A DNA stretch of 38,041 nt from Elusimicrobiota bacterium (GTDB lineage Bacteria > Elusimicrobiota > UBA8919). Location of the stretch: the NCBI GenBank assembly GCA_028718185.1, contig JAQUMH010000016.1, positions 1 through 38,041 of the forward strand, written 5' to 3'. Numbering within the stretch: the stretch's first letter is position 1; the number at the start of each line of letters is the position of its first letter. The position numbers and the translations under genes were made by a program. Shown one piece after another: positions 2,829 to 34,206 of the stretch. The notes under the pieces were generated by a model. It was not told the DNA's origin. It worked only from the letters and a program-made list of their open reading frames with translations, and made no database searches.

Positions 2829-3734
2829 CTAATTATTCGCTCTATATATGTTCAAAAGATTTTTTATAAGCATCATTGTTGTCACTGCTCCGACTCCACC
2901 CGGGACAGGAGTAATGTAACCTGCAACATTTACCGCTTCATCAAAAGCTACATCACCAACTGTTTTCATTTTAGGTTTACCTGTTTTTTCATCAATTACA
3001 GGGTTACCGCTCGCATCCTTAACAGAAACTCTGTTTATTCCGACATCTATTACTATTGCACCTTCTTTTATCATATTACCTTTTACAAGACCCGCTTTGC
3101 CGACAGCGACAATTAATATCTCAGCCCTCTTTGTATGAGTAACTAAATCTTTTGTCGCAATGTGACAGACAGTAGGTGTTGCCGACTCTAAAAGTGAGGA
3201 AAGAAGCATAAGAGTTACCGGCTTACCTACTATTTCGCTATGACCTACGATGACAGCTTCTTTACCTTTAAGTTGTTCACCTGTTGCTCTTATACATTCA
3301 ATAACAGATAACGCTGTACAGGGCGCAACAGCCAGTTTCACATCAGCATATAAAAGTTTACCGAGATTTACAGGCGAAAGTCCTTCAACATCTTTATTAG
3401 GTGGAATTGACATTTGAATATTTTTTGAATTTATTTTAGCAGGTAACGGCATCTGTAAAATAATACCGGTAACCTTTTTATCTTCTCCTATCTTTTTTAT
3501 TTCAGAAATCAAGTCACTCTCAGAAATCTTCTCATCCAATTGAACAAGATTATAACCAATCCCCATTTCTTCGCAAGAAGCTTTCTGGTTCTTAATATAA
3601 ACACGGCTTGCAGGATTGTCCCCGACCTGCACCGCGACAAGAACAGGCTTTTCCGATAGTTTGCCGAGTTCCACCTTTAATTCCGCCTTTATCCCTTCCG
3701 CTATCTTGTTCCCGTCAATAACCTTCGCACTCAT
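2829..3734 (-). CDS. folD: Methylene-THF dehydrogenase (FolD family), cyclohydrolase Lys replaced by Gln
   Basis: A 301-residue FolD-family protein that oxidises or reduces methylene-/methenyl-THF with NAD(P). Family marks are GDNPASRVYIKNQK near residue 40, LQMPLPAKI, the Rossmann segment VGHSEIVGKP and the signature TPVPGGVGAVTT near the end. In the E. coli and human enzymes the motif Y-x3-K supplies the lysine (human Lys56) needed for cyclohydrolase chemistry; here it reads Y-I-K-N-Q, so Gln is at that place, with Lys one residue later. KDVDG is KDVEG, changing the second Asp. A dedicated cyclohydrolase, fchA, lies next to it, so this protein may be dehydrogenase only (inference). It is the last gene of the methyl-branch operon and has GGGGGAA before ATG. 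Confidence 0.95.
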   Translation of the reverse strand: MSAKVIDGNKIAEGIKAELKVELGKLSEKPVLVAVQVGDNPASRVYIKNQKASCEEMGIGYNLVQLDEKISESDLISEIKKIGEDKKVTGIILQMPLPAKINSKNIQMSIPPNKDVEGLSPVNLGKLLYADVKLAVAPCTALSVIECIRATGEQLKGKEAVIVGHSEIVGKPVTLMLLSSLLESATPTVCHIATKDLVTHTKRAEILIVAVGKAGLVKGNMIKEGAIVIDVGINRVSVKDASGNPVIDEKTGKPKMKTVGDVAFDEAVNVAGYITPVPGGVGAVTTMMLIKNLLNIYRANN

Positions 3735-3946: not shown

Positions 3947-4564
3947 TTAGCGCAGTTTTTTTAATATTTTTTCTATTTCTTCAAATGCATCTTTCATCAT
4001 CTTTTCATATTTTGGTTTTGTTTCTTTTACAAAATCAACATCTTCAATAAATTTAAGATTTATATCTATGTTGAATTTTGCAGATTCTATTCCGGCACGT
4101 AAAATAGATACACCGCACGCAACATCGCTCAAAAGATTTTTATTCCCTATTTCCGAAAGCCGTTCGGCAAAAGGTAAAACTTCAATACATATCTTAAAAA
4201 TCTTGCAAGGCACAGATAACGAATTTTTTAATGATAACTGTATTTCTTCTTTTCTTTTTGTTATCTCATCTGTGGTATTTTTAGGAAGTTTATAAGAATT
4301 GGAAAGAACCGTATATGCTTTAACGTCTTCATCAATCAGGGCTGATAGCTGGGAATTGAAAATTGAGAGTTCGAATAATATTTTTTTTAATTCATCCTGG
4401 TATTGTTCATAACCCTTTTTGTCAATTGTAAAATTAGCAACCATCAAAATACAGGATACTCCCGTAGTAGAAACCAAAGCAGCAGCACTCCCGCCACCTG
4501 GTGCCGGCAGTTTCGCAGATAAGTCATCTAAATATTTTTTTATAGAAGAATCGAGATAGTTCAT
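3947..4564 (-). CDS. fchA: Methenyl-THF cyclohydrolase FchA (cyclodeaminase family)
   Basis: A 205-residue, mostly helical protein of the formiminotransferase-cyclodeaminase/cyclohydrolase family. The diagnostic glycine-rich segment LPAPGGGSAAALVSTTGV is at residues 20-37, and SVPCKIFKICIEVLP and LLSDVACGVSILRAGIE are typical later helices. Acetogens use FchA to interconvert formyl-THF and methenyl-THF in the cytoplasm. Its place between metF and folD, and the altered active site of the neighbouring FolD, support a true cyclohydrolase role rather than histidine catabolism. Start ATG at 4564; the next gene is separated by palindrome P1. Confidence 0.9.
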   Translation of the reverse strand: MNYLDSSIKKYLDDLSAKLPAPGGGSAAALVSTTGVSCILMVANFTIDKKGYEQYQDELKKILFELSIFNSQLSALIDEDVKAYTVLSNSYKLPKNTTDEITKRKEEIQLSLKNSLSVPCKIFKICIEVLPFAERLSEIGNKNLLSDVACGVSILRAGIESAKFNIDINLKFIEDVDFVKETKPKYEKMMKDAFEEIEKILKKLR

Positions 4565-8547: not shown

Positions 8548-10260
8548 TTAAAACAATCCTACAATTTTTCCGTCTTTATCCAAATCAACTTTAGTTCCTG
8601 CGGGAACTGACGGTAGTCCCGGCATTGTTCTCATTTCTCCGCATAGAGGATACAAGAAACCTGCGCCGATGGATGCGCGGATATCTTTTATCGGAATCCT
8701 GAAACCTTTCGGTCTTCCTTTTAATTTTGGGTCATGTGATAGCGATAAATGTGTTTTTGCCATACATATTGGAAGTTTGTCATAGCCAAGTTTTGTATAA
8801 AGCTCGATTTTCTTCTCTGCTTCAGGAAGATAGTCAACACCATCTGCTCCATAGATTTTTGTCGCTATTGTTTCTATCTTTTCTTTGATTGGCCGGTCAA
8901 GTTCATACAGGAACTTAAAGTCGGTTTTCTTTTCGCATGCTTTTACAACTGCTGTTGCAAGTTCCATTCCGCCTTCCCCGCCTTTTTCCCATACCTCGCT
9001 TAAAACAGCGTCATCAGCACCTGCTTTAATCGCTCTTTCCCTGACCATTTCTATTTCCTTATCAGTATCATATGTGAATTTATTAATTGCAACGACTACC
9101 GGAACGCCGAACATTTTAGCATTTTCTATATGCTTCTCAAGATTGCAAATTCCGCCTTCAACAGCGGGCAGGTTTTCTTTAATAAGTCCCTCATCCAGAG
9201 GTTTGCCTGCAACAACCGTGAATTTCCCGGAATGCATTTTCAAAGCGCGTATAGAACAGACAATTACCACGCAATTCGGAACAAGCCCTGAATACCTGCA
9301 TTTGATATCCATAAACTTTTCCATACCGCAATCAGCGCCAAACCCGGATTCAGTAACAACATAATCGGCAAGTCTTAAAGCTATCTGGTCGGCAATTATG
9401 GAATTATTACCATGTGCAATATTAGCAAAAGGACCCGCATGGACAAAACAAGGCGTATGTTCCGTTGTCTGTAAAAGATTTGGTTTGATAGCATCTTTCA
9501 TAAGAACAGCCATAGAACCAGCAACCTGTAAATCTTCAGTAGTAACCGGTTTACCATCAGGAGTAAATGCAACAACAATCCTTCCCAACCGTTCTCTTAA
9601 ATCTTTAAGTGAAGTAGTAAGTGCCAAAATTGCCATTACTTCAGATGCAACTGAAATATCAAATCCTGAATCACGCGGGATACCGTCATCTTTTGTTCCT
9701 AATCCTATTTTAATATTTCTTAAAGCCCTGTCAGATACATCTACCACGCGCCGCCATAAAATATTGTTCATATCTATATTAAGCTTATTGCCTTTATGAA
9801 GAGAATTATCCACAAATGCAGCGCATAAGTTATGTGCGATTGAAACAGCATGAACATCACCGGTAAGATGTAAATTAAAATCTTCCATAGGTAAAACCTG
9901 CGAATAACCGCCGCCTGCAGCACCGCCTTTAATTCCAAAAACCGGTCCCAATGAAGGCTGCCTGATAGCGGTAATAATCTTTTTACCTATTTTAGCCAGC
10001 CCTAACGACAATCCGATTGTCGTTACTGTTTTACCTTCGCCAAGCGGTGTAGGAGTAATCGCAGTTACATCAATATATTTTCCGCATTTTTTATTTTTCA
10101 GCCGTTCAAGAATTTCGAGTTTTATTTTTGCTTTGTTGTCACCATATAATTCCAACTCATTTCTTTTAATCCCTATTTTTTTAGCAATATCAATAATAGG
10201 TTTAAGCTTTACTGCCTGGGCTATTTCAATGTCGGAAGGAACAGATACTTTTTTATTCAT
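8548..10260 (-). CDS. fhs: Formate-tetrahydrofolate ligase
   Basis: A 570-residue enzyme, close to the usual 556-560, that uses ATP to join formate to THF as the first methyl-branch step after formate. The P-loop TPTPLGEGKTVTT is near residue 65; IRQPSLGPVFGIKGGAAGGG, HLTGDVHAVSIAHNLCAAF and FANIAHGNNSI are strongly conserved family blocks, and the protein ends with the usual PGLPSVPAG region. It is the first gene of the operon, preceded by a consensus promoter (10283-10310) and AGAGAGG ahead of ATG. Confidence 0.97.
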   Translation of the reverse strand: MNKKVSVPSDIEIAQAVKLKPIIDIAKKIGIKRNELELYGDNKAKIKLEILERLKNKKCGKYIDVTAITPTPLGEGKTVTTIGLSLGLAKIGKKIITAIRQPSLGPVFGIKGGAAGGGYSQVLPMEDFNLHLTGDVHAVSIAHNLCAAFVDNSLHKGNKLNIDMNNILWRRVVDVSDRALRNIKIGLGTKDDGIPRDSGFDISVASEVMAILALTTSLKDLRERLGRIVVAFTPDGKPVTTEDLQVAGSMAVLMKDAIKPNLLQTTEHTPCFVHAGPFANIAHGNNSIIADQIALRLADYVVTESGFGADCGMEKFMDIKCRYSGLVPNCVVIVCSIRALKMHSGKFTVVAGKPLDEGLIKENLPAVEGGICNLEKHIENAKMFGVPVVVAINKFTYDTDKEIEMVRERAIKAGADDAVLSEVWEKGGEGGMELATAVVKACEKKTDFKFLYELDRPIKEKIETIATKIYGADGVDYLPEAEKKIELYTKLGYDKLPICMAKTHLSLSHDPKLKGRPKGFRIPIKDIRASIGAGFLYPLCGEMRTMPGLPSVPAGTKVDLDKDGKIVGLF

Positions 10261-13551: not shown

Positions 13552-13580
13552 ACCCCACATTTTTACGGGGTTATTTTTTT
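13552..13580 (+). terminator. Rho-independent terminator for focA
   Basis: Stem ACCCC/GGGGT (13552-13556, 13567-13571) followed by TTATTTTTTT. It works for plus-strand transcripts arriving from focA and the S1 repeat. Its 3' side overlaps the acsE stop codon (13571-13573) of the converging gene. Confidence 0.75.
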
Positions 13581-14359
13581 CTGTATGCTTCAAGGTAAGA
13601 GTCACAATAAAGTTGTCTTCCAAGTAAAAGCTCCGCTGTTATCATTGCATCCATAAGTTCATTGTCAAGCGGATTCAAAATCGCAGCATCAAGTCCTGAA
13701 GCCAAAGCCATTACAAGAAACGTCCTGTCTACAAGCCCCCTGTTAAGACAACCCTGTGAAACATTTGACAAACCAAGAATTGTTTTCGGCGGCGGGTCAC
13801 ATATAAGTTTGCATTGTTTAATAGTTTCCAAAACAGCACGGGAATGGTCTTGAGCAACATTCACGGGTAGAATCACTGCATCAATATATAAATTTGTCGT
13901 TTCAATATTATGCTCCATACAAGAGGCAACTATATTTGCTGCTATTTCCATACGTGCTTCGGCATTTGCAGGAACTCCTGATTTTGTCATTGTAAGTGCA
14001 ATTACATTTGCATTGTATTTCTTTACAAGAGGAAGCAGTAAATCCAATTTTTCCTTTTGCCCTGAAGTAGAATTAAGGAAAGAGCCGGGACCTGCAATTG
14101 ATAACCCTTTTTCCATAACATCAATTTTTGTCGTATCAACAGCCAGAGGACACTTAGTTGTCTCTCTTATGGTTGTTATCAACCATTCCATATCTTTTAA
14201 TGCTTCCATTGAAGCAGGACCTACATTGACATCCAAAACATTGGCACCGGCGTCAATTTGTTTCTTTGCAAGTTCCTGAATTATTGATTTATTTTTTTTC
14301 TGAATTGCCTCACTGACATTCTTAAACATCCCATTAATCTTCTCACCAATAATAAACAT
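13571..14359 (-). CDS. acsE: Methyl-THF:corrinoid iron-sulfur protein methyltransferase
   Basis: A 262-residue pterin-binding TIM barrel, the usual AcsE length, which moves the methyl group from methyl-THF to the cobalt of AcsCD. IIGEKINGM at the N-terminus, ANVLDVNVG, PLAVDTTKIDVMEKG, FLNSTSG, YIDAVILPVNVAQD and LGLSNVSQG are the expected pterin-site blocks. It is separated from acsCD by ackA, an ORF6N pseudogene and a GC-rich CsgG-like gene, which looks like later insertion into an acs locus. ATG at 14359 follows GGGAGG. Confidence 0.94.
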   Translation of the reverse strand: MFIIGEKINGMFKNVSEAIQKKNKSIIQELAKKQIDAGANVLDVNVGPASMEALKDMEWLITTIRETTKCPLAVDTTKIDVMEKGLSIAGPGSFLNSTSGQKEKLDLLLPLVKKYNANVIALTMTKSGVPANAEARMEIAANIVASCMEHNIETTNLYIDAVILPVNVAQDHSRAVLETIKQCKLICDPPPKTILGLSNVSQGCLNRGLVDRTFLVMALASGLDAAILNPLDNELMDAMITAELLLGRQLYCDSYLEAYRKK

Positions 14360-15997: not shown

Positions 15998-16018
15998 GGG
16001 GACAGGCATTAATTCCCC
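15998..16018 (+). repeat. REP-like element, left of the ORF6N pseudogene
   Basis: GGGGACAGGCATTAA followed by TTCCCC: a 5-bp stem with the GACAGG tract typical of REP sequences associated with IS200-like (RAYT) transposases. A related copy is at 16830-16849. Confidence 0.5.
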
Positions 16019-16052
16019 AAACATTTTGATTTTATATCTTTTTTACTATCTT

Positions 16053-16607
16053 TTATTTCTTTGTTTTCTTGATAGTGTGTTTAACTTTCAATACAGCAAG
16101 ATTCAGTTCTATTGTTGTCTCTTTTTCACTCGTTGCCAGATTATCATCAAAAAGTTCACCAATAATTTTGCCACTCTTTTGAAGTAAATTTTGTTTTTGT
16201 TGTTCGTCTTGTACCGTTGTTAATGCTTTGATGTTTCGCGAAAGATTCCTAATTCTTGCAAAAGTTTAAATAATGTATATTGTCGTTTGGGTAGCTCTGT
16301 GGCTTTTCAAAATCGTGGCAAGCATATATAGTCCTTTTTCTGTAAATGCTTTAGGAATATACTTTACATGTTTTCCCCTACCCTGATTCTTTAAGGTCAA
16401 AAATTTTGACCTTAAAGCAGACCATTCTTCTTTATCTAATAAAATTAAATATCCTTTAGGAAATTTATCAGAATTATTAGATACTGCTTGATTTATCTCT
16501 TTTGTTTCTACATTATAAAGTTTTGCTACATCACTATCAAGAATTACTTTCTGTCCTCTTAATTCTATGATTTTGTTTTCAATTTCTATAAGTTTTTTAT
16601 CTATCAT
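16053..16607 (-). pseudogene. ORF6N-domain protein interrupted by one in-frame stop
   Basis: Residues 1-113 (start 16607) give a KilA-N-like ORF6N DNA-binding domain: ELRGQKVILDSDVAKLYNVE, NQAVSNNSDKFPKGY and AFTEKGLYMLATILKS. The frame meets TAA at 16266-16268 just after TQTTIYII, then continues with TFARIRNLSRNIKALTTVQ and a glutamine- and lysine-rich tail to TAA at 16053-16055. A single base change of a Glu codon (GAA to TAA) would explain it, because homologues usually read ETF at this place. ORF6N proteins are typical of phage and mobile DNA. A short product may still be made. Confidence 0.82.
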
Positions 16608-16829
16608 TTTGTTCTCCTGTTCAATTTTATATTCCCATTCCCTTTAATTATAGACTTGAGAAGAAAATCTGGTAAAATCACTTCAAGTTTTCGATGCAAT
16701 ATTTCTGACGGATTATTGAGAAGTCAAACTTATCCTAAATACCCCATTTTCTTATCAATATCTAATTATCTAACAACGTCCCCTTTTTCCTGTCTCTTTT
16801 TTTCATAGAAGAATATTTGGGGATTAAAT
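16608..16829. other. Gene-free AT-rich spacer
   Basis: Upstream flank of the ORF6N pseudogene (AGGAGAAC before its ATG). No further feature recognised. Confidence 0.5.
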
Positions 16830-16849
16830 GGGAACAGGTACTAATTCCC
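16830..16849 (+). repeat. REP-like element, right of the ORF6N pseudogene
   Basis: GGGAACAGGTACTAATTCCC, related to 15998-16018; GGGAA/TTCCC pairing is kept although the arm sequences differ. Confidence 0.5.
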
Positions 16850-16855
16850 TCTTTG

Positions 16856-16962
16856 GCAAAGCTTCGCTTTGCAGCTACCTTTCCTACTTTCTACTTCCCA
16901 CTTGCCTTGCCAAAGGTTTAGTGTCAGTCAAACCCGCTAAAGTATTAGTGGTGGGGCGGGCT
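16856..16962. repeat. Hairpins, one related to the S repeats
   Basis: A hairpin GCAAAGC/GCTTTGC near 16857-16873, and CCCGC/GCGGG near 16932-16960 enclosing TAAAGTATTAGTGGTGGG, the reverse complement of the CCACCACTAATACTTT module of S1. The second hairpin ends just before the ackA stop. Confidence 0.55.
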
Positions 16963-16964
16963 TT

Positions 16965-18161
16965 CTACTTCCCGCCTTTAACAAGTTCCATGGTCTCTTT
17001 TGCAATCAAAATCTTTTCATTTCTCGGAAGAACCAATATTTTTATTTTAGAATTTGTAACCCCTATTTCACCTTCAATGCCGATTGTTTTTTCGTTCTTC
17101 TTAGAATCAATTTTTATATCGAATTTTTCAAAACCTTCAAGTATTTTTTCTCTTATAAGAGGCGAGTTTTCTCCAATTCCACCCGTGAACGAAATCGCAT
17201 CAATTTCTCCGTTCAAAAGAAAATAATAGCCGCCGAGATATTTTCTTGCTCTATAAACAAAAATATCTATAGCCAGTTTCGCCTTTTCATTGCCTTTTTC
17301 TGCTTCTTCGACAACTTCTTTCATTTTATTGCTAACTCCTGAAATTCCGAACGTACCACTTTCTTTATTAAGGCAAGTTTCAAGTTCACTTAACGACCAA
17401 CCGCTTTTTAAAAGATACAGAAGAATACCCGCGCTTATATCACCGGGCCTGTCAGGCATTACAAGTCCTTCAAGCGGCGTAAAACCCATTGAAGTATCGA
17501 TTGATTTTCCGTCCTTAATAGCACACACGCTACAACCTGCACCTAAATGAAAAGAAATCATTGTTGCAGTTTTTTTCTTCAGTATCTTTGCTGTTCTTTC
17601 TGCAATATATTTATGCGAAATTCCGTGAAACCCGTATTTCCTAATTTTATATTCAAGATACAAGCGTTCAGGCAGTGCATATCTAAAAGCGACCTCAGGT
17701 ATCGTCTGATGAAACGATGTATCAAATACAGCTATATTTTTTTTACCCGGAAAAAGTTTTTCAGATGCTTCTATCCCCATAAGATTATAAGGATTATGAA
17801 CCGGGGCAAGCTCAAAATCTTTGTAAATTTCTTTTTTTACATTTTCATCAATTATAACAGAAGCTGTAAATGTCCAACCACCATGAACAACTCTATGCCC
17901 TATGGCAGAAATATCATCTTTTGAATTAACACATCCACATTTAGAATTTGTTATTATTGATATAATCCATTCGAGTCCTTTTTGATGGTCAAGAATCGGT
18001 TGAACAATCTTTTCTATCTTTCCATTTACCGTACGTGTTAGTATAGCTTGCTCAAATCCAATATTTTCTAAAATACCTTTACATATTTCTTTTTCTTCCG
18101 GCATTTCGAAAATTTCATACTCAATCGAATAAATCCTACTGCTCAAAACAAGTATTTTCAC
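16965..18161 (-). CDS. ackA: Acetate kinase-family protein with degenerate phosphate motif 1
   Basis: A 398-residue ASKHA kinase. Strong AckA blocks remain: HRVVHGG, PVHNPYN, FDTSFHQTIP, GFHGISHKYI, DTSMGFTPLEGLVM and FTGGIGENS. However, the N-terminal signature normally reading N-x-G-S-S-S-x-K is SSRIYSIE here, so the catalytic Asn, Gly, two of the Ser and the Lys are replaced. HLGNG is HLGAG, losing the conserved Asn, and the usual GTR before the conserved Arg is PDR. It ends the carbonyl-branch operon, where acetyl-phosphate to acetate plus ATP is expected, but activity is uncertain. Start is GTG at 18161 with GGAGGT five bases upstream. No pta in the window. Confidence 0.85.
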   Translation of the reverse strand: MKILVLSSRIYSIEYEIFEMPEEKEICKGILENIGFEQAILTRTVNGKIEKIVQPILDHQKGLEWIISIITNSKCGCVNSKDDISAIGHRVVHGGWTFTASVIIDENVKKEIYKDFELAPVHNPYNLMGIEASEKLFPGKKNIAVFDTSFHQTIPEVAFRYALPERLYLEYKIRKYGFHGISHKYIAERTAKILKKKTATMISFHLGAGCSVCAIKDGKSIDTSMGFTPLEGLVMPDRPGDISAGILLYLLKSGWSLSELETCLNKESGTFGISGVSNKMKEVVEEAEKGNEKAKLAIDIFVYRARKYLGGYYFLLNGEIDAISFTGGIGENSPLIREKILEGFEKFDIKIDSKKNEKTIGIEGEIGVTNSKIKILVLPRNEKILIAKETMELVKGGK

Positions 18162-18252
18162 TGTATACCTCCATTATTAACGCTAATTGTCGCAAATTAT
18201 TCGCGTGTATTCGCGTTGTTCCTCTTTATTCGCCTTTTATTCGCGTTTATTT
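18162..18252. repeat. ATTCGCG word array
   Basis: On the minus strand the acsD stop TAA is followed at once by ACGCGAATAA, GGCGAATAA, ACGCGAATAC and CGCGAATAA words, up to the ribosome site of ackA. Confidence 0.7.
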
Positions 18253-19200
18253 CTCTAATCTTTTTATATAATTTTTAACTTCTTTAACTGCTTTTGGATG
18301 ATTCATCACAAGAATATCGCAACCTGACTGAAGATAACCGATAGCAGTTGTTACTTCCCATAAAATTCCTCTTTTTGACAGAGGTCCCCATTCCGGTTTT
18401 TCAGATTCATCTGCTTTGCATTCTTTTATCTTCCATGTTTCCTGACCGACAAGCGTAATTATAGGTTGTGACATCATTTTGTCGTTTGATAATGCTGCTA
18501 ACCGTGTTCTTTCAATTATAGTGTAACAATACTCAAATCCATAACCAATACCACCGGTACTGGGATGAATAACTATCCTGTCAGACCCGAAACCCATATC
18601 ACTTATTAAAATATTCAGCTGTTTCTCAAGATTTATGTCAAGCGGCGTCTCTGCTATTAAAGAATGTCCTCCTGATTGTGCCGCAGCGGTAAATGTTTTA
18701 TAGTTTTCTTTTGCGGCCATACCAATAAGGCAATTTTCGCCTTTTGCCGCCTGTGACACATCCATTATAATTGAAGAATCCTTTTCATTATTCCCGCAAC
18801 CGATAATTATCAAAGGAAGTGTTGTCGCCGATAAAACATCTTTTACTGTTTTTGAAACATCAGCGGCTGAAGCATTTTTACCGTCCGGGTCCGCGCTTTT
18901 AAGTCGCAGGCATATTAAATCACAACCGCTCTCTTCGCATTTCTTCGCCCATTGAGAAGGATTTTTCAGGACATCCCCGTATTCGTTTTTAAGAACATCG
19001 GGCCATTCAGCCGGTTCTTCATCCCACACTTCCATAGCAACTACCGGCGAATTAGGAATTGTCCCTTCAAAATATAAAAATGGAAGCGTGTTAAGCCCGC
19101 CTATCTTCACTTTTTTTGAACGAGTCCCCCCTTCTTCTTTTGTCGCCCCTATAGTTAATTCATAAACCTTACCCGCCCACTTTTCAATAACTTTATCCAT
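18247..19200 (-). CDS. acsD: Corrinoid iron-sulfur protein, small subunit
   Basis: A 317-residue TIM barrel, the usual length, that with AcsC forms the cobalamin-carrying methyl shuttle. Typical segments are VYELTIGATKEEGGTRSKKVKIGG, split here as YELTIGATKEEGG and RSKKVKIGG, then ALEVWD-like VVAMEVWDEEP, LICLRLKSADPDG, LPLIIIGCGNNEKD and DILVMNHPKAVKEV. It lies downstream of the reactivating ferredoxin gene and upstream of ackA. GAGGT precedes ATG. The gene is complete with no unusual features. Confidence 0.94.
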   Translation of the reverse strand: MDKVIEKWAGKVYELTIGATKEEGGTRSKKVKIGGLNTLPFLYFEGTIPNSPVVAMEVWDEEPAEWPDVLKNEYGDVLKNPSQWAKKCEESGCDLICLRLKSADPDGKNASAADVSKTVKDVLSATTLPLIIIGCGNNEKDSSIIMDVSQAAKGENCLIGMAAKENYKTFTAAAQSGGHSLIAETPLDINLEKQLNILISDMGFGSDRIVIHPSTGGIGYGFEYCYTIIERTRLAALSNDKMMSQPIITLVGQETWKIKECKADESEKPEWGPLSKRGILWEVTTAIGYLQSGCDILVMNHPKAVKEVKNYIKRLEK

Positions 19201-19318
19201 TTAACACCTCACTAATAACACATCACGAATGTTATCACGAATTGTCACGAATAAAGTCAAAGTTGTCATTCGTGTTTATTCGTGATGTTTGCCTTTATTC
19301 GTGATTCCCTATTCGCGA
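19201..19318. repeat. CACGAATAA/TTATTCGTG word-array hairpin
   Basis: CACGAAT words and their complement ATTCGTG occupy opposite halves, so the region can fold. It overlaps the 3' end of the upstream gene: that gene's last residues and its TAA are written in the array word CACGAATAA. Confidence 0.75.
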
Positions 19319-21220
19319 TTTTACATTAGGGAATAAATCCATATCCGTATGCGGTAAAAACAGGGATGCTGTATAATTATTCATAAATTCGGAATTCTCG
19401 CTTAAATCAATATACGTCATTTTTTGCGCAAGTTCTTCCGCTTTTTTCATAGCATCCTGGGACAGAAGACACATCTTGGCGCCGGTTATGGAACCATTAC
19501 CTATAAATATAAACTTTTCTTTCGGCAAATCCGGCAGAAGACCTATCATAATTGATTTTTCAATATCAAGTGCATTACCAAGCCCGCCTGCAATAATTAC
19601 ACGGTCAAGATTATTAAAATCAAATCCCATTTTTTTAATTAAAACCTCAGCACCGGAAAATATCGCTCCTTTTGAATGAATAAGGTTTTTTATATCTGCC
19701 TGCGTTATTGAAATTTCTGATGTTACGAAAAATTCTACTTCCTCATCGGTTTTCTTTAAATATTTTGAAGACTTTTGTATAAATTCGCCTGATTTATCAA
19801 TAATTCCTTTTTTAAAAAGTTCTGCAATTATAGAAATTATACCTGCTCCGCAGATACCTATCGCTTTTTCATTATTGATTATTTTTATTTTTATTTTATC
19901 ATTATTCAATTCAAAACTTTCGATTGCACCTGATTGTGCTCTTATCCCGTTTTTTATACCCCCGCCTTCAAAACAGGGACCCGCAGAAGTGGAGCAGCAT
20001 ACAAGAAAATCCTTATTTCCTAAAACAACCTCGCCATTTGTACCCAAATCAATAAAAAGCGTCAGTCCCGAAGAACTGTTGATTCCGCTTGCCAAAACCC
20101 CCGCTGTTATATCCCCGCCTATGTATGAAGAAATATTCGGAAGGGTTGCCAAAAGCCCTCTTGGATTTATTTTTATCCCTGCTTCCGATGCACGAATAAC
20201 AGGGAACGAATTGGCCACCGGAATATACGGAGACCGCCTGATGTTTGACGGGTCTACTCTTAATAGAAGATGTATCATCGTAGTATTTCCCGCGCAAACA
20301 ACACAGTTAATATCGTTAAGCGATATTTTATTTTCAATTACATGCGAAATAATTAAATCATTTATTACATCAACAACTGAGTGATGTAAACGGTCCAAAC
20401 CTGCCGGGTCTTCTGCATGAATTATTCTTGTAATTACATCTTCACCAAAAGAAACCTGCGGATTATAAATTGCTTTTGCAGAAAGAACGTCCTGGTTGTT
20501 TAAATTAACAAGATAGGTAACAATTGTAGTCGTTCCGATATCAACTGCAATGCCGTAATTTTTATTTGATGTATCAGACGGTTCGACAAGAACAATTTCA
20601 GTTGTGCCGTTCCTATTGCCAAGCGTTACGGTAACCTTAAAACCAGTTGACCTTAGAAGCAAAGGGAGTTTCTTTATATTTGAAAGCCCCATCTGCATAA
20701 CCAGATTATCTATTCCCTTTTTCCTTATCTCTCTTAATATTCTTTCTAAATCAGCTGTTGAATCATCAATTGATGGTTTAGGTAATTCAAGATATAACTT
20801 GGCTAAAAATGGACTATGCTTAAAAATATTCTCTTTAAAGACCTCGGTTTTTATATCAGCGGGTTCCGCCGGTGTGAAAATATTAGTAACTGTTCCTTTT
20901 GTTAAAATTTCAGCTTTTCCAACCCGGGCTTCTTCAGGAATAAATACTTCCATATGCCCTTTGCAATTCGTCCTGCAGGCAAGAACATACCCGTCTTTTT
21001 TTTCTTTTTTAGTGAGCGCCGGTGAATCAGTAACAACTTCGCCTTTTGTAACTTTGACCTTGCACTTCCCGCAAACACCCTCACCGCCGCAGGAATTATA
21101 AATCTGTATACCCGCCATCATAGCAGCAGTAAGCAAATCCGTCCCCTCTTGTACAGATACAACTTTGTTATAAGGTAAAAATTTTATTTTACACACCATA
21201 AATCGTGTTATAGCGTTCAT
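19295..21220 (-). CDS. acsV: Reductive activator of the corrinoid protein (RACo-like, DUF4445)
   Basis: A 641-residue protein with an N-terminal plant-type 2Fe-2S domain (CGGEGVCGKCKVKV near 44-57, then LACRTNC) and a C-terminal ASKHA-like ATPase region: GIAVDIGTTTIVTYL, NPQVSFGEDVI, CAGNTTMIHLLL, FIDLGTNGEVVLG and STSAGPCFEGGGI. Such proteins use ATP and low-potential electrons to rescue Co(II) corrinoid to Co(I). Its place between acsC and acsD fits. The start is uncertain: neither Met1 nor Met8 (MVCKIKF) has a clear ribosome site, and the first codons touch a repeat array. The last six residues are encoded by another array. Confidence 0.93.
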   Translation of the reverse strand: MNAITRFMVCKIKFLPYNKVVSVQEGTDLLTAAMMAGIQIYNSCGGEGVCGKCKVKVTKGEVVTDSPALTKKEKKDGYVLACRTNCKGHMEVFIPEEARVGKAEILTKGTVTNIFTPAEPADIKTEVFKENIFKHSPFLAKLYLELPKPSIDDSTADLERILREIRKKGIDNLVMQMGLSNIKKLPLLLRSTGFKVTVTLGNRNGTTEIVLVEPSDTSNKNYGIAVDIGTTTIVTYLVNLNNQDVLSAKAIYNPQVSFGEDVITRIIHAEDPAGLDRLHHSVVDVINDLIISHVIENKISLNDINCVVCAGNTTMIHLLLRVDPSNIRRSPYIPVANSFPVIRASEAGIKINPRGLLATLPNISSYIGGDITAGVLASGINSSSGLTLFIDLGTNGEVVLGNKDFLVCCSTSAGPCFEGGGIKNGIRAQSGAIESFELNNDKIKIKIINNEKAIGICGAGIISIIAELFKKGIIDKSGEFIQKSSKYLKKTDEEVEFFVTSEISITQADIKNLIHSKGAIFSGAEVLIKKMGFDFNNLDRVIIAGGLGNALDIEKSIMIGLLPDLPKEKFIFIGNGSITGAKMCLLSQDAMKKAEELAQKMTYIDLSENSEFMNNYTASLFLPHTDMDLFPNVKSRIGNHE

Positions 21221-21221
21221 C

Positions 21222-21298
21222 GGGTTGTAGAGTTTTAGAGTTTATAGCGTTAAATCCTTAACCCTATAACCCTACAACTCTATAACCCTATAACTTCA
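21222..21298. repeat. TTATAGGG/CCCTATAA word-array hairpin
   Basis: On the minus strand the acsC stop TGA (21296-21298) is followed at once by AGTTATAGGGTTATAG words, then CTCTACAAC-type words up to the start codon of the corrinoid activator. Confidence 0.8.
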
Positions 21299-22609
21299 TT
21301 TCCACACTGTCTTTAAATATTTCGGTATTCCCGACGCTTCTTTCGGTCCTACAAGAACCTGCCAGCCGGTTATATCTTCCAATTTCCCGCTTAATACCGA
21401 AACGTAACCAGGAATTATTATTTTTTTATGACTTACCTTGCTCGCTACATCTGTTTTTTTCATCCAGTTATCAATAATTTCAGCGTTAAATTTATCTGCT
21501 GCCCACGCGGTCAGGACAGACATCCCTTCGGCATCACAAACTAAAAGCCATGCAGAAACTTTTGAATTTTCCACCTCAGGCGAAACAGTAAAAAATGTTA
21601 ACGAAAAGTTTGTTGTAACTAAAAGCGGTGATTTGTCATCCGGCTTTCCTATAGTATATAGCTTCGGTTCCATCATTATCGGTTTCTGCGGGTCCGTGTA
21701 GATATTGAGCCGCAAAGTAATAAGAGGAAGAAGTTCCTCAGGTTTATCCATTTCAACAATAAGAACACTTACATATTTCGTTATATAAGTTGCCGCTTCA
21801 GCAACATCTTTTGCGAAAGCAATCACAGGAAAACCAAGCGGTCTGAAATTTTTCTTCAGAGCAAACCGCCTGACCTGCGTGAAATCCTGAACATTTTTTA
21901 ATATGTCACCTGAGCCGCAGTCAAGTATAATGTCCTTAACACCTGCCGAAGTAACTTTTTGTGAAAGTGCTGCGATTTCTTCAATATCTTTCCCGTTTAT
22001 ACATAGAGGAACACTATATTTTTTTGCTATATCAACCATCTGGCTAAGATTTTGTTCATTTGCTGAATAAACAAGCGGTTTTTTCTGTGAAACATTCTTC
22101 AATGCTTCTTCAATCGCCTGTAAATTTTTGCTGACAAGAACTAACGGTAATTGTATTTTCTCCGATAGTTCTTTTGATACAGCCGCGAATTTCGAGGCAT
22201 CGTTAGAATCATTTTTAACCGCTACAAGGTCTACTCCAACCATCATCCCGACCCGGTCAAAGTTGAGTTTCTTTATTTTTTCAATTTTTTCCTGAAGATT
22301 CTGTTCATTATCAGACACGGCAACAGCTATTGCAGTCGGATGATAAAATGTTTTTTCGTGACGGAACAACACCGTCTCACCGCCGACTTCTACCTTTTTT
22401 GCACCTTCCCCTATTGTAATTGTCGCCATAGGCGGAAGTGACGCCGACTCAAGCAGCTGTTTCGCCGCCTCACTAACATCCGGACACTTATCCAAAGATG
22501 TCTTTTTAGCAGCAAGCGCCATAGCAAATGCCAAACAAGTCGGAAACCCGCATTTTTTGCAATTTGTCTTAGGTAAATTTTTGTAAATATCAAGACCAGA
22601 TAAAGCCAT
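21296..22609 (-). CDS. acsC: Corrinoid iron-sulfur protein, large subunit
   Basis: A 437-residue protein with an N-terminal 4Fe-4S domain, Cys17, Cys20, Cys25 and Cys42 (NCKKCGFPTCLAFAM ... DKCPDV), then a TIM barrel and a C-terminal corrinoid-binding domain (VSAWLLVCDAEGMSVLTAWA, IIPGYVSVLSGKLEDITGW). The four cysteine positions equal those of characterised AcsC proteins. With AcsD it carries the methyl-cobalt intermediate to AcsB. GGAGGA precedes ATG; the spacer upstream is filled with repeats. Confidence 0.96.
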   Translation of the reverse strand: MALSGLDIYKNLPKTNCKKCGFPTCLAFAMALAAKKTSLDKCPDVSEAAKQLLESASLPPMATITIGEGAKKVEVGGETVLFRHEKTFYHPTAIAVAVSDNEQNLQEKIEKIKKLNFDRVGMMVGVDLVAVKNDSNDASKFAAVSKELSEKIQLPLVLVSKNLQAIEEALKNVSQKKPLVYSANEQNLSQMVDIAKKYSVPLCINGKDIEEIAALSQKVTSAGVKDIILDCGSGDILKNVQDFTQVRRFALKKNFRPLGFPVIAFAKDVAEAATYITKYVSVLIVEMDKPEELLPLITLRLNIYTDPQKPIMMEPKLYTIGKPDDKSPLLVTTNFSLTFFTVSPEVENSKVSAWLLVCDAEGMSVLTAWAADKFNAEIIDNWMKKTDVASKVSHKKIIIPGYVSVLSGKLEDITGWQVLVGPKEASGIPKYLKTVWK

Positions 22610-22630: not shown

Positions 22631-22734
22631 GAGTTATAGGGTTTTAGGGTTATAGTGTTATAGCGTTATAGGGTTTTAGGGTTTAAACCCTACGAACTCT
22701 AAAACTCTATGAACTCTAAAACTCTAAAACTATT
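22631..22734. repeat. TTATAGGG/CCCTATAA word-array hairpin
   Basis: G-rich words on the left and C-rich words on the right meet at the palindrome GGGTTTAAACCC (22679-22690). It lies just upstream of acsC. Confidence 0.8.
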
Positions 22735-23003: not shown

Positions 23004-25202
23004 TTACATCAACGCGTCCATCGTAATCGCCGGATGATTCACTTTCTGTAAAAATTCCAGCAGTTTTTCCGTGTCTGTTGCTATTGTTTCATCTGCTATT
23101 TTATCAAAGAAATCCGGAACTCCTTCCTCCGCACAACGGGCTTTAAGTTTATCTGCGAGCGCCTCTTTTAGTTCTTTCGGCATCCATACAATTCTCTTCA
23201 ACCCGCCGTCTGCTTTAATAAATTTCTTTGAAGTAATATAAAGACGCCCGAAACCCATAAATCCCGGTGTCTGGTTACCGCCGCCGACAGAACCCGCAAG
23301 CGTGGAAAAAGACATACCAAGCGGTGTCATTCCGGAAAATTCACGATTAACAATCATAAATCCGTTTGCTTCCGGAACAATTGCGCCTATACATTCAAAA
23401 CAACCGCAGGATGTCTCGGGAAATGTCATAATTGAATACCCGTGAAACTGTTCAAGGTGACCATTTGATTTTGTTTTTACCCAATCGTTTATACCCTGCC
23501 ATTCACCACGCACTTCATCCAAAACAGTACCTTTTTTTACCGGTTGGTTTGGTCCTGTCGGGTTTATTTCAAACGACGCCTTGCAATCAAGCCAGTTATA
23601 AGCACCGCAGAGCCCAAGCCGTTCGGGTTTTACAATGCATAAATGGTTAGGTGCAAAGGATTGACAGAGAGTGCAGGAATAAAACGTATCAACTGATTCA
23701 TCTGTCATAGCGCCTATTCTTTCGTCGCGGAACTTATACGCTTCGCGGGCTTTCGGTAATAATTTTTTAATATCTTCTTCTTTTGTATAAATCTTTACCT
23801 GGACCTTATCAATAATCGCCCCGAAAATTTCGTGTACTCTTGCGTGAATTATTGTTCCGAGATGTTTTAATTTAAAACCTTTTGTTTTGGCTTCTTTTGA
23901 AATCCTGAGCCATATCAAATCACGTTGACCGGTATGCATAACACCCTGCGCCTCGTTTAAGAATGTATGAATCTGCCTTTCCACAATTGATTCAAATTCC
24001 TTCTGCATCTTTCTTCCTGCTACTTCAACATATATTCCTAACGGAGTTGCAGAACCTTCTTTAATATCATCTATTTCAGACCCGATAATTTCTATTTTGC
24101 CGTCATCAATCTTGTCCGTATCCCCTATTGCGACATATTCAAACGCGGTTGAAAATTTACTACCCGCCTCAAGATATGTCTGCTCTCTTCTCACCCTTTC
24201 GCCTTCAAACGCAGCTGAGTAAGCGACCGGAATCGGAATTTCCGAAACTTTTACCTTAACACCTCTAACTTCAATACAAACAGGAACAATCTTTTTATAA
24301 TCTAATTCTTTAACCAAATGCTCGTAGGTACAGATTCCTGACGGACGAATTTCCGGTATGTCAGTATCTGCAATTATAGGAAATCCCATATCAATTGCAC
24401 CCGCACCTGTTGCATATTTAATATCATCTAATGGTCCTAACGTTAATCCGAAAGCAAAAACCCTTTCTTTACAATATTTCAAACACTTCGTCGCCTCACC
24501 TTTTCTATGACCGCCGAAAGTAAGAGCTCCTCTTATCGCCCAGTGTAACGGGTAAATAGCTGAAATTGTATCCCTGCCGTACGGAACTATATAAGTATCC
24601 CAACCCATTTCCACCCCTTCTTCTTTCAGCTGGTCAATAATTGATTTACCACCTGCCTTGCCGCCAGGCAGGTTAGAAGATGAACCGACAAAAGTAAGTA
24701 TCTGTCTTTTTTGGAGTTCTCTTACTATTTCAACTGCAGTTTTGTTATCAGGCGCCGCACCAAGTATTGCAGCAGCTCCGGGCATTCTGCCGTCAACAAG
24801 CTGTATTCCCAACTGCCTTAAAATAGTATCCGAAAAAAATCCGTTACAATCAGGCTGCGGTTCCTGGTTGTAAAGATAGCGGAGCCCCATAATAATCTCT
24901 TCCGAAAGAAGCGCGGCAATCCCTGAGTCCAAAGCGTCGCCAAGGTAAGGCAGCCATATCGCCTGTGTAGGCTCGTCATGTAAAAGTGATTTTGCTTCCT
25001 GCAAAACAGGTTTTATATCGCCAAGTGTTTTTACTTCAGTACCTAACAATGCATACGCCATCGGGAAGAAATATGCAGTATCAGGAAACTCTACTTTTTG
25101 CGATTCTCCTTTTTCAGAAATAGCTTTATTCAAGAATTCTTCCGCTTCTTTAACTATCTTATTAGCACCTCTTATAACAGCACCCGCAACAATCTTTGAC
25201 AT
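23004..25202 (-). CDS. acsB: Acetyl-CoA synthase (CODH/ACS beta subunit)
   Basis: A 732-residue bacterial ACS, close to the 729 of Moorella. It joins CO, the methyl group from AcsCD and CoA at the nickel A-cluster. The 4Fe-4S ligands are Cys510, Cys513, Cys522 and Cys532 (SCTLCQSF...HLCIVKPERLGLCGAYNW), and the bridging/distal nickel site is Cys599-Gly-Cys601 (ETSCGCFECIGA). The N-terminal CO-channel domain is complete. Residues about 178-186 (LPGGKAGGK) are encoded by a perfect palindrome (24651-24673) that resembles an intergenic repeat and may be a small in-frame insertion. GGAGGAAAAA precedes ATG. Confidence 0.97.
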   Translation of the reverse strand: MSKIVAGAVIRGANKIVKEAEEFLNKAISEKGESQKVEFPDTAYFFPMAYALLGTEVKTLGDIKPVLQEAKSLLHDEPTQAIWLPYLGDALDSGIAALLSEEIIMGLRYLYNQEPQPDCNGFFSDTILRQLGIQLVDGRMPGAAAILGAAPDNKTAVEIVRELQKRQILTFVGSSSNLPGGKAGGKSIIDQLKEEGVEMGWDTYIVPYGRDTISAIYPLHWAIRGALTFGGHRKGEATKCLKYCKERVFAFGLTLGPLDDIKYATGAGAIDMGFPIIADTDIPEIRPSGICTYEHLVKELDYKKIVPVCIEVRGVKVKVSEIPIPVAYSAAFEGERVRREQTYLEAGSKFSTAFEYVAIGDTDKIDDGKIEIIGSEIDDIKEGSATPLGIYVEVAGRKMQKEFESIVERQIHTFLNEAQGVMHTGQRDLIWLRISKEAKTKGFKLKHLGTIIHARVHEIFGAIIDKVQVKIYTKEEDIKKLLPKAREAYKFRDERIGAMTDESVDTFYSCTLCQSFAPNHLCIVKPERLGLCGAYNWLDCKASFEINPTGPNQPVKKGTVLDEVRGEWQGINDWVKTKSNGHLEQFHGYSIMTFPETSCGCFECIGAIVPEANGFMIVNREFSGMTPLGMSFSTLAGSVGGGNQTPGFMGFGRLYITSKKFIKADGGLKRIVWMPKELKEALADKLKARCAEEGVPDFFDKIADETIATDTEKLLEFLQKVNHPAITMDALM
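24651..24673. repeat. Palindrome inside acsB
   Basis: ACCTGCCT (24651-24658) and AGGCAGGT (24666-24673) pair perfectly around a 7-base loop. Its sequence closely matches the intergenic palindrome at 27257-27276. Confidence 0.7.
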
Positions 25203-26593: not shown

Positions 26594-26800
26594 AGGGTTA
26601 TGGCGTTATAGGGTTATAGGGTTGTAGGGTTGTAGGGTTTTTAAACTCTACAAACTCTATAACTCTATGAACTCTATAACTCCACGAACTCTATAACTCC
26701 ACGAACTCTATAACTCCACGAACTCTATAACTCCACGAACTCTATAACTCCACGAACTCTATAACTCCACGAACTCTATAACTCCACGAACTCTATAACT
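26594..26800. repeat. Word-array hairpin with seven perfect 17-bp tandem units
   Basis: 26594-26640 is GGGTTATA/GGGTTGTA words, including four GGG runs spaced by five bases (26611-26637). 26669-26787 is seven tandem copies of GAACTCTATAACTCCAC plus a 13-base partial copy to 26800. On the minus strand it starts inside the cooF stop codon TAG (26799-26801). Confidence 0.9.
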
Positions 26801-27359: not shown

Positions 27360-27478
27360 AATCGCGAAGCGAGGAAGAAATTTCTGAAGAGCCTAAATTT
27401 GCGACTTATTCTTTCCAGGAGCAAATGATAGAGCGAGTTCTAACGAGCGTCTCGAAGAAGTTTGCTCCCGAGCGTTAG
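27360..27478 (-). repeat. About 120-bp dispersed repeat R3
   Basis: Nearly identical to R1; differences are concentrated in the loop after CTCGCTCT and at one stem base. Its first bases include the acsA stop TAA (27475-27477). Confidence 0.85.
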
Positions 27479-29379
27479 TACATCATGGGCTTTAACTTCA
27501 ACGCTGCACGTTTTTTGTCCAAATGTTCTATTATAAGTTTTGCTGCTTTTATCGGATCGGGTTCAAACGCAAATTTTCCGCCTACTATATTTTCAATATC
27601 ATCCGTTAGATACTTTGTCAGGTTTTTTCCACCCATAATAGGGAGCGGAAGACCTAAAACCGTATAAATACCTGATGCAATAGCATAAAATCCAATACAT
27701 ACCGCTTTTTCAGACATCCATTCAGGAGCTGCAGCAGCAACAGGTAAATCGGAAATATCTTCACCTAATCCGCCTTCAGTTAAAACATTGCAAAGGGTTG
27801 TTAAAATCCTTGAAATATCAACACAAGCGCCCATATGCAAAACAGGCGGTATACCGACTGCTTCACAAATTTCCTGGAGACCTTTTCCTGCATATTTTTT
27901 TGCTGCCTCAGGAAGAAGTAATCCTGCTTTAGCAGAGGCAATTGCAGAACATCCTGTTGTAACAACCAGAACATCATTTTTTAGGAGTTCTTTTGTAAGT
28001 TCAATGTGCGCCCAGTCGTGTTTCACTTTAGGATTATTACAACCGACAATTCCAACCGCACCACGCAGACGTCCTGAAATTATAGCATCGTTGAGCGGCC
28101 TGTATGTAGCTCTATATTTTCCTCCGAGCATCTTAAAAATGTATTCAGTTGTAAAACCGGCGACTAATTCCATCTTTTCTTTCGGAATATTAACAAGTTC
28201 TTTTTTCCTATTTTTGTAATTTTCAATAGCAAGCCGGACAATTTTTTTAGCAATCGGCAGTGCTTCTTCCTCTGAGAATTCTATGTGTTCAACACCCGGA
28301 AATTTTGCTTTCGGTGAAGTCGAAACTACTTTTGTATGAAAACAACCGGCAAGTTTACCTAACGCAGGCATAACACACTGGACATCAGTAATAAACACCT
28401 CAACGGCACCCGTTATGATGGCAAGTTCCTGCTGTAAGAAATTACCTGCAATCGGTATACCTCTTCTCATTAGAATTTCATTTGCAGTACAGCAGATACC
28501 CGCAAGGTTTATTCCTTTTGCACCGTAACTTTTTGCAAGTTCCAAAAGTTCTTTATCCTGCGAAGCGGTAACGACAACATCCGACAGTAATGGTTCGTGC
28601 CCGTGAACAATTATATTTACTTCGTCTTCTTTTATTACACCAAGATTTGATACGGAACGTATCGGAGTAGGGGAACCAAACAGAACATCCTGCAAGTCGG
28701 TAGCAATCATACTTCCACCCCAGCCGTTTGATAGTGATGCCCGCATCCCCTGCTGAAGTATATTTTTATAATCGCTATCAACTCCCATTGTAGTTCTATT
28801 CATAAGCTCTACTATTTCTTTGTCAATACCTCGCGGCATAATTTTATTTTTTCTCCAGAGATCCTGTCTTTTTTGTGGAGCGCGGTGTGTTAGATCCAAC
28901 TCCCCTTCCTGCTGACCAAACTCTGAAAGGAATTTTTCAGCTACGTCATGAGCGATTTCTTCAATCTTTCTACTTTCTGTATTTATGCTTAACTCTTTTG
29001 CAAGATTTAAGAGTTTTTCTTCTCCTTTTATTCCATAACCTTTTGTTTTACCTTCAGCTGTTTTAAGTAAAGTGTGCGCAACATCCCTGCCATGGTCGGT
29101 ATGGGCTGCACCGCCTGCGGCTATCATTCTGACAAGATTTCTTGCGGCGATTGTATCGGCGTTCGCACCGCATATTCCCTCAGTATTGCCTTCGCCGAAA
29201 GGGTCAATTCTACAAGGACCCATTACGCAATTTCTACAACATACTCCAAGTTGCCCAAACCCACATTCCGGTTCCATTGCTTCATACCTATCAAACGCTG
29301 TAGTAATTGCTTTTTGACAAGATACATTTAACATATCTTTTGTTGCTGAATCTATTGTTTTTTTATTTTCACCACTCAT
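27475..29379 (-). CDS. acsA: Carbon monoxide dehydrogenase catalytic subunit
   Basis: A 634-residue Ni-Fe CODH that reduces CO2 to CO for AcsB or oxidises CO. N-terminal CGFGQLGVCCRNCVMGPC and EGICGAN supply the D- and B-cluster cysteines. C-cluster ligands are visible in order: His in VHGHEP, then Cys in GICCTANE, TDVQCVMP, VGIVGCNNPK, VTTGCSAIA and MGACVDISR. No missing ligand. It could be called cooS from sequence alone; the acsB/acsC context favours acsA. Its ATG directly abuts the cooC stop TAG, and GGAGGG within the end of cooC serves as its ribosome site, so translation is coupled. Confidence 0.96.
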   Translation of the reverse strand: MSGENKKTIDSATKDMLNVSCQKAITTAFDRYEAMEPECGFGQLGVCCRNCVMGPCRIDPFGEGNTEGICGANADTIAARNLVRMIAAGGAAHTDHGRDVAHTLLKTAEGKTKGYGIKGEEKLLNLAKELSINTESRKIEEIAHDVAEKFLSEFGQQEGELDLTHRAPQKRQDLWRKNKIMPRGIDKEIVELMNRTTMGVDSDYKNILQQGMRASLSNGWGGSMIATDLQDVLFGSPTPIRSVSNLGVIKEDEVNIIVHGHEPLLSDVVVTASQDKELLELAKSYGAKGINLAGICCTANEILMRRGIPIAGNFLQQELAIITGAVEVFITDVQCVMPALGKLAGCFHTKVVSTSPKAKFPGVEHIEFSEEEALPIAKKIVRLAIENYKNRKKELVNIPKEKMELVAGFTTEYIFKMLGGKYRATYRPLNDAIISGRLRGAVGIVGCNNPKVKHDWAHIELTKELLKNDVLVVTTGCSAIASAKAGLLLPEAAKKYAGKGLQEICEAVGIPPVLHMGACVDISRILTTLCNVLTEGGLGEDISDLPVAAAAPEWMSEKAVCIGFYAIASGIYTVLGLPLPIMGGKNLTKYLTDDIENIVGGKFAFEPDPIKAAKLIIEHLDKKRAALKLKPMMY

Positions 29380-34116: not shown

Positions 34117-34206
34117 AGGGTTGTAGGGTTATAGGGTTATAGAGTTATAGGGTTTTAGGGTTTAAACCCTATAAACCCTATGAACTCCACGAACTCTAAA
34201 ACTCTT
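34117..34206. repeat. TTATAGGG/CCCTATAA word-array hairpin
   Basis: G-rich words, the palindrome GGGTTTAAACCC (34158-34169), then CCCTATAA/ACTCCACGA words. It sits just upstream of the rnfD ribosome site, as a related array does for the flavoprotein at 26578 (both share AACCTCTTAA before the first GGG). Confidence 0.8.

Follow-up and report, generated by a model that had tools for sequence, protein, structure and literature searches.

The acetate-kinase-like gene in the acs operon of an Elusimicrobiota bacterium belongs to an ancient paralogous subfamily with a conserved signature of its own, missed by the preliminary description of this DNA. It is a variant of a known family, called acetate kinase by annotation pipelines; AckV is a convenience label, coined here, for the variant group. 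The best account, to which comparison of sequences lends about an even chance, is that AckV is an anciently duplicated, nucleotide-impaired paralogue that binds acyl phosphate or carboxylate and serves one-carbon and acs enzymes, and is not the operon's ATP-forming kinase. Its role is probably something other than making ATP from acetyl phosphate, because the ATP loop is rebuilt, the neighbours are genes of one-carbon (Wood-Ljungdahl/folate) metabolism and a normal AckA is encoded elsewhere.

The stretch of DNA analysed, here called the window, is 38,041 nucleotides long. AckV occupies 16965–18161 on the minus strand and encodes 398 aa from a GTG start (18161), with a ribosome-binding site, GGAGG, 6 bases 5′ of it (18168–18172); start, ribosome-binding site and full-length profile matches uphold the reading frame and strand first proposed. 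PF00871 matches over the full length at 424 bits (cut-off 22) and TIGR00016 at 433.6 bits (cut-off 293.4); the butyrate kinase profile TIGR02707 gives 81.8 bits, below its cut-off of 289.1, and covers residues 174–338 only. The AlphaFold model (pLDDT 94.9) has the acetate kinase fold: the best Foldseek match is Thermotoga acetate kinase 2iir, at TM 0.95. With AckA (PF00871, TIGR00016; 2iir and Methanosarcina 1g99/1tuy) AckV shares fold (TM 0.94–0.95), length and acyl pocket; with butyrate kinase (1saz) it shares the ASKHA acyl kinase fold.

The motifs are as first described. In PHOSPHATE1 (P1; residues 7–15, 18117–18143) the canonical N-x-G-S-S-S-x-K-Y is replaced by SSRIYSIEY, that is, S7-S8-R9-I10-Y11-S12-I13-E14, and the N-x-G-S-S-S-x-K that marks an ATP-dependent acetate kinase is absent; PHOSPHATE2 (17535–17549) reads HLGAG; LOOP3 (17448–17456; Mt G239-T240-R241) reads PDR, with its Arg retained. 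The His, Arg, Asp and Glu residues said to be kept are indeed there: catalytic R91, D148, H180, R241 and E384 (Methanosarcina numbering), and H123, all of them common to AckA and the window protein. The ADENOSINE motif, FTGGIGENS (17163–17189), is intact in the window, as are D148 and E384, and is degraded in several orthologues; PRNE (17016–17027; Mt P381-T382-N383-E384) keeps its Glu and carries a Thr-to-Arg change that is a signature of the clade. AckV thus differs from AckA in PHOSPHATE1 (K14 to Glu), LOOP3, LOOP4 and T382 to Arg. The predicted P1 hairpin (strands 2–8 and 12–19) makes the same turn as in a control model of canonical Elusimicrobia AckA, which places the change in side chains and not in the backbone. 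G-[ST]3-x-K is absent from every minus-strand reading frame of 16001–18600, which excludes a frameshift hiding the motif.

AckV is carried by 20 genomes, which represent six families of Elusimicrobiota and a seventh (f101) that belongs to a different phylum. A protein search of 60 relatives and GTDB contigs finds orthologues 66–78% identical in the same Elusimicrobiota family and order; the close ones all read N-[CF]-R-I-Y-S-[IV]-E-Y (or D for N) where the canonical motif is N-x-G-S-S-S-x-K-Y. Distant Elusimicrobiota members have R-V-N-T-I-D-F (G040), R-I-K-S-L-E-F (G034), R-[IV]-H-S-[IV]-[ED]-F (G272, G273) or R-V-N-S-V-E-F (G271), and family f11 forms a divergent subtype (NCGRNLIEF, DCERTIVQF) with lower profile scores. 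An AckV profile run over 336 Elusimicrobiota genomes gives 13 matches of at least 608 bits, all other AckA scoring at most 490; it leaves the f11 subtype unseparated, and a motif pattern search is too loose to use alone. Among the top-scoring matches inspected in 386 genomes mostly outside Elusimicrobiota, the motif occurs only in f101 (G681, G552), of which G726 also carries AckV; sampling outside Elusimicrobiota is thin, no family there contributing more than a few genomes, and most genomes are MAGs. A maximum-likelihood tree built with five active-site stretches removed groups 19 of 19 AckV rows behind a single branch with 100/100 support, and these genomes' canonical AckA copies fall elsewhere. 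AckV is therefore no recent defect but a paralogue of long standing, and it has a gene neighbourhood of its own. In the tree f101 branches as the sister group of Elusimicrobiota AckV as a whole and G008 nests inside the latter, so that a recent interphylum transfer of an AckV-FchA-FolD cassette is unsupported.

Comparison of 19 AckV rows with 59 rows of other acetate kinases (Methanosarcina numbering) separates what the clade has changed from what it has kept. Position 14 is Lys in all 59 others and Glu (16), Asp (2) or Gln (1) in AckV; position 9 is Gly in all 59 and Arg in 16 of 19; the canonical Ser at position 10 is Ile, Val or Arg; position 382, Thr in 58 of the others and Ser in one, is Arg (15), Pro (2), Lys (1) or Thr (1). 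Most members share the signature R9-x-x-[ST]-x-[ED]14 with R380. The changes G9 to Arg, S10 to Ile/Val and K14 to Glu/Asp, first noticed in the window, are those of the clade, whereas N7 to Ser is private to the window, N7 being retained in 15 of 19 rows. G239, N211, D283 and R285 are mostly replaced; G331 is lost in seven rows (to Arg, Asp, Asn, Glu or Ala) and kept in 12, the window included; E384 is lost in three and kept in 16; D148 is lost in two and kept in 17. R91, H123, F179, H180, G212, P232 and R241 are invariant in all 19, and the acetate-pocket residues V93, L122, F179 and P232 show no narrowing for a smaller acid. The variable sites on the nucleotide side are P1, LOOP3, LOOP4, ADENOSINE and E384 (in three of 19); taken together, the invariant and replaced positions show an acyl/phosphoryl pocket that is kept and a nucleotide perimeter that is rebuilt or relaxed. 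A Fisher test of nucleotide-side against acyl-side changes gives p = 0.017, which carries little weight, the site lists being hand-picked and the rows related. The nucleotide motifs of one member (G034, locus L153) are among the most degraded (LTGDVAEEI, E384 to Gly).

Mutagenesis of the Methanosarcina enzyme gives these positions unequal weight: Asn7, Ser10, Ser11, Ser12 and Lys14 of PHOSPHATE1 count among its functionally important residues, and the penalty is 117- to 200-fold for a group of changes that includes G239S but only about 6-fold for N211A (PMC4390882). Canonical enzymes also carry Ser, Gln, Ala or Gly at the Asn of HLGNG; for both reasons HLGAG, correctly read at the outset, is weak evidence of inactivity and was dropped as a sign of it. 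Counting against the main reading, P1 residues in the Methanosarcina structures lie too far from ATP to touch it directly (PMC4390882).

AckV is a working gene, under purifying selection as strong as that on canonical AckA. Between family members pN/pS is 0.15–0.33 for AckV and 0.13–0.32 for the canonical copy in those genomes; the new P1 motif ranks with the better-conserved stretches (10 of 13 columns identical across f1 and f2, a score equalled or bettered by 23 of 386 windows); and the motif codons differ synonymously between independent genomes. A pseudogene is rejected on pN/pS. In G726 (L268:3367-4575, G726:C121; f101) the AckV frame is interrupted by a TAG at about residue 90, either through an assembly error or because the copy is broken.

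In the window, AckV lies directly downstream of acsD, the CODH/ACS corrinoid protein delta subunit (18247–19200). On the same (minus) strand lie acsV, the corrinoid activation protein (19295–21220); acsC, the gamma subunit (21296–22609); acsB, acetyl-CoA synthase (23004–25202); the CODH catalytic subunit, CooS/AcsA (27475–29379); acsE, the methyl-THF:corrinoid methyltransferase (13571–14359); and the formate-THF ligase FTHFS (8548–10260). An FchA-type methenyl-THF cyclohydrolase (FTCD_C; 3947–4564) and FolD (2829–3734), also on the minus strand, complete the folate genes named here. AckV had been placed at the end of the acetyl-CoA operon; it is in the acs operon, but not quite last, acsE following 3′ after two inserted ORFs. 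A phage-type ORF6N-domain ORF (16266–16607) breaks the AckV-acsE linkage in the window genome. The search for the same variant in related acs operons, suggested at the outset, was positive: families f1, f9, f12 and f26 have AckV flanked by acsD and acsE, at times with one more ORF in the interval.

Other arrangements extend the association to the folate branch: acsD-AckV-FTHFS-FchA-FolD in G003, AckV-acsE-...-FTHFS in G274 (f11), acsD-AckV-...-FTHFS in G726 (f101), AckV-FchA-FolD in G008 and G681, where neighbouring genes lie only a few bases apart or overlap as slightly, and MetE-AckV-FchA-FolD in G552, where the distance is 20 bases. In the last three genomes, MAGs 91–95% complete, where homologues of the window's FchA and FolD follow AckV, neither acetyl-CoA synthase (CdhC) nor a full FTHFS was found. 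Altogether AckV stands beside acs or tetrahydrofolate genes in 18 of 20 genomes; in the other two (G038 and G053, both f11) it has no one-carbon neighbours, which counts against the main reading. The link with folate genes outlasts apparent ACS loss in at least two lineages, and an ACS-specific role was rejected as the sole reading because AckV is retained in G008, G681 and G552. Several ACS-bearing Elusimicrobiota (G011, G270, G275, G337) have no AckV in the acs cluster, so AckV is dispensable for ACS itself. One genome (G034, L153; 96% complete) has the ACS operon, with no FTHFS found.

The intergenic DNA of the acs region is rich in repeats. Tandem arrays of the octamer AGGGTTAT/TAACCCTA lie at 2595–2693, 21259–21294, 22633–22683, 26594–26639 and 34117–34162, and a 17-bp array of 9.2 copies at 26644–26800. 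The acsD-AckV intergenic segment (18197–18251) consists of degenerate CGCGAATA repeats, with CGCGAATACACGCGAATA exact at 18198–18215; similar pieces, CACGAATA, occur at 19236–19284. No RNA family was found in the window.

A canonical route from acetyl-CoA to ATP is encoded elsewhere in the window genome (G000). The search of the rest of the genome that had been proposed finds a canonical AckA, with GSSSIK, at G000:C7, beside ndk and plsX. The only match to the Pta family, at 27.5 bits, falls on the plsX-like ORF, and a PduL-type phosphotransacylase is present at C1:881962 (254 bits). Neither pta nor pduL lies beside AckV, in line with the original remark that no pta is nearby. A second AckA occurs in 19 of 20 AckV genomes, with GSSSxK in all 16 inspected, and was not found in G007 (89% complete). 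With canonical AckA and PduL encoded elsewhere, AckV is disfavoured as the operon's ATP maker, and the ATP formation originally expected of it there is probably not its role, because AckV persists beside FchA/FolD where ACS was not detected. The first interpretation nevertheless stands in part: AckV seems not to be the operon's ordinary, ATP-forming acetate kinase, and the options then listed (inactive, using another substrate, or regulatory) all fit the sequence alike.

A mechanism can be sketched on these lines. AckV would keep the acetate kinase fold and still bind a small carboxylate or acyl phosphate: acetate or acetyl phosphate, possibly formate or formyl phosphate. With Lys14 turned to an acid and the loop serines gone, phosphate transfer to or from ATP/ADP would be poor or nil; PduL and the canonical AckA would carry the flow from acetyl-CoA to ATP; and AckV would serve AcsD/AcsE or FchA/FolD/MetE as a partner that responds to a ligand, or as a weak enzyme of non-canonical type. 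Some weak kinase activity is possible, since the window copy keeps ADENOSINE, D148, R241 and E384.

A contrary perspective supposes that AckV still functions as an ATP/ADP acetate kinase, if a slower or a tuned one, and is dedicated to the acetyl phosphate of the acs operon, with R9 and R380 replacing the charge of Lys14. That these two arginines could stand in for the lost lysine counts against the main reading; the invariance of the acyl pocket and of the catalytic Arg and His, the survival of D148, R241, E384 and GGIGEN in the window copy, the place in the acs operon and the full-length TIGR00016 match all favour a kinase. It is fairly unlikely, however: K14 is lost in 19 of 19, G331 in seven, E384 in three and D148 in two; 19 of 20 genomes have a second AckA; AckV is retained where no ACS was detected, and has no pta or pduL beside it. 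A gene in decay, or a sequencing or assembly error, is hardly credible: the motif is lost and one relative (G726, L268) has the in-frame TAG, but no frame hides GSSSxK, independent orthologues share the variant in synonymously different codons, purifying selection acts on the gene and the clade is older than the families that carry it. The sequencing error that might have undone the original observation is thus rejected.

Two further perspectives change the substrate. AckV might handle formate or formyl phosphate for the folate branch, as a formate kinase or a formyl-phosphate-using enzyme working with FchA-FolD. The tight AckV-FchA-FolD grouping in genomes where no full FTHFS was found invites this idea; formate kinase activity is latent in canonical AckA, and no gene is known for the specific formate kinase that was reported in the 1960s (PMC10170137). 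It is nonetheless very doubtful, as the V93, L122, F179 and P232 pocket is not narrowed, most AckV genomes tested also have FTHFS, and loss of P1 speaks against efficient ATP use. Alternatively, AckV might use pyrophosphate or phosphate like the acetate kinase of Entamoeba histolytica (4h0o; 31% identity in the Foldseek alignment), also a family member with altered nucleotide-side residues. The relaxed nucleotide side and retained acyl pocket would suit this, as would the Arg, Asp, Asn, Glu or Ala at G331 in seven of 19 rows, the Entamoeba enzyme being marked by a substitution, to Gln, at the equivalent position (PMC5517563). Gly331 is retained in most members (12 of 19), the window protein among them, and no Entamoeba-type change therefore closes the adenosine pocket; a pyrophosphate enzyme is accordingly disfavoured and highly improbable.

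The nucleotide-impaired paralogue remains the preferred reading, and would resemble the pseudoenzymes and pseudokinases (PMC10211241) in being a conserved paralogue without the catalytic motif, the loss of activity in AckV being presumed; no pseudoenzyme of the acetate kinase family is described, as far as a literature search showed. A bolder version is quite unlikely: that AckV is a previously undescribed, acetate-kinase-derived one-carbon component working with FchA-FolD or AcsD-AcsE and binding or converting formyl or acetyl phosphate, whether as an acyl-phosphate sensor derived from an acetate kinase, the first of its kind, or as the formate kinase that still lacks a gene.

Standard annotation labels AckV acetate kinase with high confidence; for this reason acetogenesis reconstructions of uncultured Elusimicrobiota that use the acs-operon ‘ackA’ may misplace ATP formation. 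As a conserved non-canonical acetate kinase fold linked in two phyla to one-carbon genes, AckV offers a concrete, cheap target for learning whether acyl phosphates supply the folate branch or control it.

Other oddities occur in the family. Acetate kinase relatives of Atribacterota/Caldatribacterium (L095, L098, L101, L106) form another altered branch, with GSSS to GGSS, Arg91 to Lys (GIKLINGG) and D148 to Glu; as far as read, their neighbours are not one-carbon genes. Pairs of overlapping acetate-kinase-like genes occur at L235:7151-9434 (G040:C58) and L236:7236-9522 (G044:C20): the first copy has P1 intact or nearly so and ADENOSINE degraded, and the second aligns only after the P1 region. 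These pairs, unconnected to the AckV neighbourhood, may act as heterodimers.
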